Shown here one piece after another: positions 237 to 63,092 of a DNA stretch of 64,000 nt; position 1 is the stretch's first letter; the number at the start of each line of letters is the position of its first letter. The DNA lies in the NCBI RefSeq assembly GCF_030269305.1, contig NZ_BSTC01000008.1, positions 62,001 through 126,000 on the forward strand, written 5' to 3'. Position numbers and translations under genes: made by a program. This DNA is from Kineosporia sp. NBRC 101731. Its GTDB lineage: Bacteria > Actinomycetota > Actinomycetes > Actinomycetales > Kineosporiaceae. The notes beneath the pieces are model-generated. The model was not told the DNA's origin and did not search any database. It was given only the letters and a program-made list of their open reading frames with translations.

Positions 237-1441
237 GAGGCCAGCTCCCGCAGCACGGTGGTCAGTGCCTCGACCCCTGCGACACAGTCGGCCTCCTGCG
301 CGAACTCCGCCGGGGAGTGCGAGATCCCGGTCGGGTTGCGGACGAACAGCATGCCGGTGCTGACGCCCGCCGTGGCCAGGATGCCGGCGTCGTGCCCGGC
401 GCCGGTGCCCAGCAGGGGCGCACCGCCCAGGATCTGGCTCAGGCGGTCGGCCAGTGACGTATCGAAAGCCGTGTTGCCCGTCCATGATTCCTCGGTGACC
501 GTCGCCCCGAGGTCCCGGGCCGCGGCGGTGAGGTCACGCAGCACGCCCTGCACGCTGCTCTCCGAAGGGGCCCGGGCATCGAGCCAGGCCCGCACCAGCG
601 AGGGAATGGCGTTCACACCGTTGGGCTCGACCAGCAGCTTGCCGAAGGTCGCGACGGCATCGTGGGCCCCCGCGAACTCCCGGGCCGCCAGCACGGTCGA
701 GGCGTAGCCGAGCATCGGGTCGTGCCGATCGGCCAGCCGTGTCGTACCGGCGTGGTTGGCCTCGCCCGCGAAGTCGAAACGCCAGCGCCCGTGCGGCCAG
801 ATCGCCGTACCCACACCGATGGGCGCGTCCCCGTACTCCGGCGTGGCCAGCGCCCGGCCCTGCTCCACATGCAGTTCGACGAAGGTGCCGATGCGTTGCA
901 GCGTCTCGTCGTCGCGGCCCAGATGCCGGGGGTCCTGACCGGCGCTGCGCATGGCCTCGGGGATCGAGGTTCCGTCGGCATCGCGCAGACCCGCGGCCCG
1001 GTCGGCCGACATCGCCCCGGTGATCAGCCGCGAACCGGCGCAGGCCACCCCGAACCGGGCGCCCTCCTCGTCCACAAAATTGACCACTCCCAGCGGTTTT
1101 CCGGGAGTGAATCCCTCGTCCTTCAGAGCTTCCACCGCCGCCAGGGCGCTGACCACGCCGAGCGGTCCGTCGAAGGCGCCACCGTCCGGCACCGAGTCCA
1201 GGTGGCTGCCGGTGACGATGCCTGGCGTCGCATCCGGGTCTCCCCACCACGCCCACTGGTTCCCGGCCCGGTCCACGGTGAGATCCAGCCCGAGCGCCGC
1301 GGTCTCGCCGGCGAACCACTCGCGCAGCAGAGCATCCTCGGCCGTCCAGGCAAACCGCCGGTACCCACCGGAAGCAGCCCGCCCGACAGGTTCGATCTCG
1401 GCCCAGCGCCTGGCGAAACCCCCACCTTCTGCCGTGATCAT
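233..1441 (-). CDS. M20-family amidohydrolase (allantoate / N-carbamoyl amino acid hydrolase type) of the hut operon
   Basis: A 402-residue metallopeptidase-fold enzyme. Metal ligands are visible as GSHLDSVPDGGAFDG (H80, D91), DEEG (residues 124-127), an ELHVEQG block, and a late GISHSPAEF histidine. The family (AllC/HyuC/beta-ureidopropionase) hydrolyses N-carbamoyl or ureido groups. In a hut operon a natural role is cleaving N-formylglutamate, or N-carbamoylglutamate if a hydantoin-type intermediate is made; the sequence cannot decide. The longer frame starts at 1477, but ATG 1441 is preferred because it begins the conserved domain. That ATG lies inside the arm of a palindromic repeat (1433-1503). 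The stop overlaps the hutF start (GTGA). Confidence 0.8.
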   Translation of the reverse strand: MITAEGGGFARRWAEIEPVGRAASGGYRRFAWTAEDALLREWFAGETAALGLDLTVDRAGNQWAWWGDPDATPGIVTGSHLDSVPDGGAFDGPLGVVSALAAVEALKDEGFTPGKPLGVVNFVDEEGARFGVACAGSRLITGAMSADRAAGLRDADGTSIPEAMRSAGQDPRHLGRDDETLQRIGTFVELHVEQGRALATPEYGDAPIGVGTAIWPHGRWRFDFAGEANHAGTTRLADRHDPMLGYASTVLAAREFAGAHDAVATFGKLLVEPNGVNAIPSLVRAWLDARAPSESSVQGVLRDLTAAARDLGATVTEESWTGNTAFDTSLADRLSQILGGAPLLGTGAGHDAGILATAGVSTGMLFVRNPTGISHSPAEFAQEADCVAGVEALTTVLRELAS

Positions 1442-1503
1442 GCGATCCCCCAGCCCTCGGCCGGGAGATGCCCCCACCCCCGGCGAAAGTTTGCCTGATC
1501 ACG
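1433..1503. repeat. Palindromic intergenic element, copy A
   Basis: A 71-base element bounded by CGTGATCA at 1433-1440 and its exact inverse TGATCACG at 1496-1503. Its minus strand aligns along its length with copy D (62183-62262): both carry CGTGATCA, a run close to GGCAAAC/TGCACAC, a CCCGGCCGA(A/G)GGCTGGGGGAT block and a closing TGATC(A/G)CG. It fills the gap between hutU and the M20 gene and supplies the latter's start codon. Confidence 0.7.
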
Positions 1504-11108: not shown

Positions 11109-11161
11109 CATTGAGGACGAGCGGGCACCCCAGGTGCCCACCCGCGTCCCCAAAAACTTTC

Positions 11162-11244
11162 CGTGATCATGCAAAACCTCCCCGGAGTTCTAGAACTGTG
11201 GCGGCCAGAGTTCTAGAACGTCGGGGAGGTTTTGCATGATCACG
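11162..11244. repeat. Palindromic intergenic element, copy B (also a likely terminator)
   Basis: Inverted arms of about 22 bases (CGTGATCATGCAAAACCTCC... and its inverse) enclose two copies of the self-palindromic GTTCTAGAAC (11188-11197 and 11210-11219). It fills the gap between the convergent lyase and cupin genes, so it can fold in both transcripts and probably ends them. Copy C at 35093 has the same arms and the same inner box. Confidence 0.85.
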
Positions 11245-11266
11245 AACAAGGGGTGTGAGGGGCGGT

Positions 11267-35092: not shown

Positions 35093-35317
35093 CGTGATCA
35101 TGCAAAACCTCCCCAGCGTTCTAGAACTGTCCGGCGGATCGTCGCCTACTGCGGGGCACCCGGTGAGCCGCAGTAGGCGTCCGGCGTGGCCCCACGGAGG
35201 AACCGCTACGAGGGGCCCCACCGGGCCACGCCCAGCCCGCTCACCGGGCACCTGCGCAGCTCTCGGCGTGATCCGAAGGAGAGTTCTAGAACTCCGGGGA
35301 GGTTTTGCATGATCACG
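35093..35317. repeat. Palindromic intergenic element, copy C, with a nested insert
   Basis: The outer arms are the same as copy B (CGTGATCATGCAAAACCTCC at the left, its inverse at the right), and GTTCTAGAAC occurs at 35118-35127 and 35283-35292. Between these boxes are about 155 extra bases that contain their own hairpin (CGCCTACTGCGG at 35143-35154 with CCGCAGTAGGCG at 35168-35179). The 225-base whole sits between the convergent flippase and polymerase genes. Confidence 0.85.
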
Positions 35318-35330
35318 AAAGGTTTGGGGG

Positions 35331-35398
35331 GCGACCACACGAATGAGGGACGCCGGTCAGCTCGCGAGCTGACCGGCGTCCCTCATTCGTGTGGTCGC
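35331..35398. terminator. 68-base perfect palindrome, bidirectional terminator
   Basis: Positions 35331-35364 and 35365-35398 are exact inverses (34+34). It follows palindromic element C and precedes the stop of the polymerase gene by six bases. Folded in RNA it is one of the most stable hairpins in the window; there is no U-tract. Confidence 0.85.
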
Positions 35399-35404
35399 CG
35401 GGGA

Positions 35405-62182: not shown

Positions 62183-62262
62183 CGTTCGTGATCATGCACA
62201 CCTTCCCCGGGGAGCTGGGGCACGTCCCGGCCGAAGGCTGGGGGATTGCCTGATCGCGAACG
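62183..62262. repeat. Palindromic intergenic element, copy D
   Basis: CGTTCGTGATCA (62183-62194) and TGATCGCGAACG (62251-62262) are inverses with one mismatch. The interior matches the minus strand of copy A over most of its length, including GGCCGA(A/G)GGCTGGGGGAT. It follows the LytR_C gene and may end its mRNA. Confidence 0.75.
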
Positions 62263-62310: not shown

Positions 62311-62430
62311 CTGAGGTGCTGCGGGGCGGACTGAGGTGCTGCGGGGCGGGCCGAGGTGCTGCGGGGCGGGCCGAGGTGCTGCGGTGCGGGCCGAGGTGCT
62401 GCGGTGCGGGCCGAGGTGCTGCGGTGCGGG
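62311..62430 (+). repeat. Six tandem 20-base repeats
   Basis: Units begin at 62311, 62331, 62351, 62371, 62391 and 62411 with consensus C(T/C)GAGGTGCTGCGG(G/T)GCGG(G/A). The first three carry GGGG and the last three GTGC, showing block-wise spread. There are no spacers, so it is not CRISPR. It is non-coding by context and could be a variable-number locus. Confidence 0.9.
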
Positions 62431-63092
62431 ACCGGTCGGGCGAACCGCGTGGGCCGGACCGGGTGCTGTCAGGCAGCCACCGGGTGCCCCGGGGGACTTC
62501 CCCGGCAGGCCCTGGCGCATGCATCGGTTGTCCGCCACGGGAACGTGCCCGGGCCCGGTTCGGCGGCTCGCTTGTTCCCCGATTGGGTCATTTCCGTGCG
62601 GTCAGGGCGCACGGAAGTTCCCCGATCATGGACGCGGGCCGGTCAAAGTACGCGGGCGGCGCCCCAGGGGCGCCTTCAGGGGCCCACGCGCGCCTAGGTG
62701 TCCTGACCACGGAGGTCGGCCACCGGCTCGTGCGTAGTCAGGCAAACCCTCGGCCGGCGTTCGGCGAGGTGACCGCACTTCCCGCTCGTGGAGACGTTGT
62801 CTCCGCCGAGGGCTGGGGGCCGCGTGGGCGTGAACGAACCGTGGGGTCACGTCGCCTGTGCCGGTGTGCTCACTGCCTGCACACGACGGGCCTCAGGGCG
62901 TCGTCGCGGGCAGTTGCCTGACCAGCGAGGATAGTTCTGGTTCGAATAGTCCTACGTTTCGGACCGTCATCATTCTGCCTTTTATCCGGTCGTGGAAAAA
63001 GGCCGTTGCCATTCATCGAACGGCGCTCGGTCTAAGTGCGGTTCACGAACATCGCTAAGAACTGGTATCTCCCGCATGTCGCATTCAGGCGC
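62431..63092. other. Long non-coding stretch with a decayed palindromic element (copy E)
   Basis: About 660 bases without a convincing gene; frames that cross it also cross the tandem repeats and match nothing. At about 62732-62835 the ends GTAGTCAGGCAAACCCTCGG and GCCGAGGGCTGGGGG resemble the two ends of copies A and D, with a small hairpin (GGAGAC-GTT-GTCTCC at 62788-62803) between, so this is probably an eroded copy. The part after 62930 is AT-richer and should contain the distal cspA promoter region. Confidence 0.5.

Follow-up and report, generated by a model that had tools for sequence, protein, structure and literature searches.

The question that this locus raises is what the palindromic elements lying between its genes are and what, if anything, spreads them. 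When such elements are scattered through a bacterial genome, they are as a rule attributed to RAYT transposases or remain without an explanation. The window, by which we mean the whole 64-kb stretch of Kineosporia DNA analysed here, was said in a preliminary description to contain four clear copies and a decayed one, which might be non-autonomous mobile or REP-like elements, terminators or sites for a nucleoid protein. In our opinion, a nuclease gene that resides within a long-armed 'master' copy elsewhere in the genome has the hairpins as its non-autonomous, REPIN-like satellites, and we would put the probability of this reading at roughly 0.6.

The four clear copies all have inverted ends of the CGTGATCATGCA type (coordinates are given without strand). 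Copy B (11162..11244) has the canonical form: it is an 83-bp hairpin whose 41-nt arms are 93% complementary, it contains two GTTCTAGAAC boxes, and convergent genes lie on either side. The same copy is found in the close relative Kineosporia mesophila (G002), with a different loop. Copy C (35093..35317) belongs to the same 83-bp type, with 48-nt arms that are 90% complementary, and carries an insert of about 140 nt in its loop; its K. mesophila orthologue is a plain 83-bp copy. The insert (window 35129-35280) has an inverted repeat of its own, CCTACTGCGG...CCGCAGTAGG, and is possibly another small element. Copy A (1433..1503) is a 71-bp hairpin element of an asymmetric type with a GGCTGGGGG block, and each of its inverted ends is one mismatch away from CGTGATCATGCA. 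It is common to our genome (G000) and K. mesophila, and the same site is empty in a repeat-poor congener (G004). Copy D (62187..62258) is a 72-bp hairpin element, also of the GGCTGGGGG type, whose left end matches CGTGATCATGCA exactly and whose right end has two mismatches; the corresponding place in K. mesophila has no recognised copy. The proposed division into two subtypes, with GTTCTAGAAC boxes in B and C and the GGCTGGGGG block in A and D, holds. Copy D itself stands as well, but its limits had been drawn too wide (62183-62262 instead of the conserved part). The reported decayed copy E (62732..62835) does have a GGCTGGGGG block, but no ends within two mismatches of CGTGATCATGCA, and its membership in the family is not confirmed. 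None of the Rfam families matched in the window.

The window repeats are part of a genome-wide family of about 200 hairpins. The exact 12-mer CGTGATCATGCA occurs 371 times (182+189) in the 8.26 Mb of this genome and its reversed control not once, which agrees with the earlier extrapolation to hundreds per genome; at up to two mismatches the window contains 18 occurrences against 5.2 expected, a number reached in none of 100 shuffles. The statistics on the elements are based on about 400 kb of the genome plus pattern searches. Of the first 100 ends listed, 74 have an inverted partner no more than 300 bp away, making 37 pairs, and the pair lengths peak at 44 bp (6), 83 bp (13) and 112 bp (9). 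In 45 distinct copies compiled from our genome and that of K. mesophila the stems are conserved and the loops variable, the left flanks being pyrimidine-rich and the right flanks purine-rich. The arms of the 42-48 bp class pair better with their own partners than with swapped ones (0.77 vs 0.49), whereas in the near-uniform 83-bp class own and swapped arms pair equally (0.91 vs 0.91). The elements are extragenic, as had been noticed in the window: of 29 copies sampled, only one has more than half of its length within a predicted gene, genes being called roughly, by a simple script based on codon-position GC. Given dispersed, extragenic, inverted doublets in hundreds of copies, with empty sites in a relative, the non-autonomous mobile or REP-like reading is the best of those originally offered.

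The candidate for a partner was found by inspecting the DNA between ends about 1 kb apart. At G000:C1:1543791-1544747 (locus L031) a long-armed copy, the only split one among the copies listed on C1, contains an ORF of 319 amino acids flanked by perfect 70-nt inverted arms. In Pfam its product matches AbiEi_4 above the cut-off, AbiEi_1 below the curated cut-off and, likewise below its curated cut-off at E 7.5e-7, the nuclease domain MTES_1575, which is of the Vsr type according to PMC3710099; NCBIfam gave no matches. The K. mesophila gene is 92% identical, and the AlphaFold2 model of its product (pLDDT 92.8) is matched by Foldseek to the AbiEi antitoxin 6y8q (E 5e-8) and to Rv2827c (1zel). Its C-terminal domain matches I-Bth0305I (3r3p, prob 0.96, E 0.11) and Vsr (1vsr, prob 0.82, E 0.25), both with weak E-values. 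As predicted from Pfam, AlphaFold2 and Foldseek together, the protein is a fusion of AbiEi-like DNA-binding domains with a Vsr/EDxHD-type nuclease domain. Residues E210, E254, D256 and H261 are invariant across 60 relatives and D243 nearly so. Between our genome and K. mesophila the dN/dS of the gene is 0.18, which indicates that the nuclease is under purifying selection.

Other ORFs between ends were inspected too, and no gene family besides the nuclease recurs among them. A NERD nuclease, a semialdehyde dehydrogenase and an APH kinase from G034 and G016, found between ends with a spacing of about 1 kb, were set aside, as they had been chosen for spacing alone and are non-recurrent; the NERD-domain ORF is at L035 2416-3174 (G034 C18).

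Relatives of the nuclease make the association much more general. We fetched 80 of them, all from actinobacterial records, 73 with enough flank. In 47 of these 73 the gene is bracketed by inverted repeats that match exactly over at least 14 nt, compared with 0 of 216 same-sized spans elsewhere in these loci, the control consisting of random spans rather than matched genes. At 45 of the 47 loci all copies to the left of the gene share one orientation and all those to its right the other, often in small tandem arrays. Several homologues near 30% identity are also bracketed, by repeats of unrelated sequence. Similarity of the repeats follows similarity of the nucleases when both are read in the same gene-relative orientation (Mantel r 0.44, p<=0.0005; 0.08 in the opposite orientation). 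Some of this correlation could come from common descent of the entire locus; intergenic DNA at 40-60% protein identity is, however, not expected to stay alike without constraint. In 5 of the 47 loci, with up to 20 kb examined in each, further repeat copies are present, and elsewhere the repeat was seen beside the gene only. Judging from these comparisons of sequence, we consider it very likely that the nuclease specifically recognises its repeats.

Could the hairpins instead be kept because they are useful to the host, mainly in terminating transcription in both directions, with the nuclease autoregulated by an operator that happens to resemble them? Copies do sit near gene ends and favour convergent gene pairs (8 of 14 copies in our genome vs 22% of gaps, p 0.004), and AbiEi proteins are known to bind inverted repeats in their own promoters (PMC7319586). 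But the repeats stand on both sides of the nuclease gene, in inverted orientation; congeners live with almost no copies of CGTGATCATGCA; and the repeats vary in sequence from one nuclease lineage to another, something that a terminator function by itself would not call for. We therefore regard this explanation as unlikely. The preference for gaps between convergent genes does leave room for termination as a side effect of the hairpins. Nothing observed here speaks for a nucleoid-protein role.

Two observations in the window touch on the same kind of place. Just to the right of copy C (window 35330-35399) there is a perfect 70-nt palindrome with 35-nt arms and no loop; unrelated to the repeat family, it probably serves the convergent genes as their native terminator in both directions. 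At the place of copy B (matching window 11120-11263), G004 has an unrelated 43-nt palindrome (L090), which suggests that one hairpin replaced or joined another between the convergent genes.

The distribution across genomes follows the nuclease. Seven of 58 genomes encode a close nuclease (E below 1e-100), and the counts of CGTGATCATGCA in these are 371 in G000, 341 in G002, 288 in G013, 29 in G016, 2 in G019, 57 in G027 and 100 in G034. G019 has 74 copies of CGTGATCATGGAC instead, of which no other genome holds more than four. Among the 51 genomes without a close nuclease, G007 alone has more than 10 copies of CGTGATCATGCA (139; Fisher p ~1e-6). The repeats that were tested are thus abundant only in genomes with their nuclease, with the single exception of G007, where no close nuclease was found in a draft assembly that may hide one; either its repeats are an orphan family or their nuclease falls in an assembly gap. 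Most of the G007 copies that were read (L211-L240) are 42-bp hairpins with a fixed stem and a variable 4-nt loop. The repeats in the sampled DNA show the same member specificity. GTTGATCACGTTCAG, which is paired with a distant nuclease, has 22 copies in G034, 20 in G016 and 0-1 elsewhere, so that one genome can hold two such pairs.

These results also bear on a second alternative, namely that the hairpins are MITEs spread by some transposase and that the nuclease is a passenger in one copy. Indeed, short non-coding elements with inverted ends are typical of MITEs, and a coding relative sharing those ends, here a gene between perfect terminal inverted repeats, resembles a small transposon. A passenger would hardly account for member-specific repeats around the same protein family in 47 of 73 loci, for a distribution that follows the nuclease, or for the lack of any other recurrent gene family between the ends inspected. 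No DDE transposase was identified, and filled and empty sites, with few clean cases among them, showed no consistent target duplication of the kind that the preliminary description proposed to look for. We find the MITE explanation improbable.

Besides the site of copy A, G004 is empty at the nuclease island, which occupies a common locus in our genome and K. mesophila; in G004 the genes flanking the island are 16 bp apart by alignment, a clean empty site. Many copies are common to our genome and K. mesophila, and others occur in just one of the two. Our genome lacks at least one copy through a deletion, recognisable by its scar, so that absence is not proof of insertion. Between the same two genomes the nuclease island and a 73-bp copy are inverted in place, and an 83-bp copy probably is too. 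Such inversions could come from recombination between the arms, for which the nuclease would be unnecessary.

A further alternative, similarly improbable in our judgement, is that the protein is a defence or toxin-antitoxin factor and that the repeats are its self-marks, decoys or addiction sites. PADLOC does match the N-terminal part to AbiEi models, and nuclease fusions are common in defence. On the other side, unsystematic inspection showed no AbiEii-type partner gene beside the nuclease gene in L031, and the link between repeat and nuclease lineages, together with hundreds of copies, is more simply explained by a spreading pair. As to carriage by phages or plasmids, there was no phage match, and a single distant match fell on a chromosome-sized record of 11.85 Mb that is filed as a plasmid.

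A classical REPIN-RAYT system, for all the likeness in doublet hairpin architecture and extragenic position, has practically no chance and is refuted at the sensitivity of our searches: Y1_Tnp (PF01797) was found in 0 of 8 genomes by a search that was positive in E. coli and four other control genomes, and the GTAG or CGTC tag is missing from the ends of the 45 compiled copies with flanks, which end in CGTGATCATGCA. The partner suggested earlier, a REP-associated tyrosine transposase or an IS with similar ends, did not turn up; the gene with matching ends encodes the AbiEi/Vsr-type nuclease.

We return to the hairpins as satellites of this nuclease. Because AbiEi proteins bind inverted repeats, the repeats would most naturally be read by the N-terminal part and cut by the C-terminal part. 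From the linkage, the co-variation and AbiEi biochemistry we infer that the AbiEi-like part binds the repeat arms; the fold and the conserved residues suggest that the nuclease would cut or nick in or beside the hairpin; and through repair or rejoining the copies might then spread or be flipped in place, at times taking the gene along. It is in this sense that the nuclease probably mobilises the repeats.

The parallels with REP/REPIN-RAYT systems (TnpA-REP; PMC3116915, PMC3733652, PMC8266576) are these: hundreds of extragenic palindromes, inverted doublets that form hairpins with a less conserved loop, a cognate gene bracketed by its own repeats, and several independent pairs of repeat and gene per genome. 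The Kineosporia partner is, however, an AbiEi/Vsr-type nuclease rather than an HUH Y1 transposase. The system works like a REPIN, but the transposase and the end tag that define the RAYT-REPIN family were looked for and not found, and for this reason we place it outside that family. With AbiEi antitoxins (6y8q; Rv2827c, 1zel; PMC7319586) the protein shares winged-helix DNA-binding and AbiEi C-terminal domains, as seen by Pfam and Foldseek, and known members bind inverted repeats; it differs in being fused to a nuclease domain and in having repeats on both sides of its gene and genome-wide. Its C-terminal domain matches the folds of the EDxHD/Vsr nucleases I-Bth0305I and Vsr, and nuclease genes that live selfishly are known (PMC3943268). 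Unlike these, it has AbiEi-type DNA-binding domains, and it is associated with short palindromes dispersed over unrelated sites instead of one homing site or mismatch repair.

We would lay even odds that the REPIN type of system has evolved independently a second time, in Actinomycetota, with a Vsr/homing-endonuclease-like nuclease whose AbiEi-type domains guide it to its own palindromes, which it recognises and spreads without a transposase. We found no description of the repeat sequence, or of its pairing with an AbiEi-Vsr nuclease, in the open-access literature, most subscription journals being outside that coverage. If the idea is true, a nuclease partner of unrelated fold would mean that the REP lifestyle has more than one origin. 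Some of the orphan repeats of high-GC actinobacteria would then be accounted for, and AbiEi/nuclease fusion genes, which are widespread and poorly characterised, would gain a function open to testing. The member-specific pairs of repeat and nuclease are, in addition, ready-made sets of protein/DNA specificities.

Two minor observations may be added. Between copy D and the reported copy E (window 62313-62430), a 20-bp unit, GAGGTGCTGCGG(G/T)GCGGGCC, is repeated in tandem about six times. In Streptomyces coelicolor, the predicted ArgR site upstream of SCO5864, CTCTCCGTGATCATGCACCC (PMC5839063), contains the 12-mer CGTGATCATGCA; instead of an ARG box, it may be a repeat arm.
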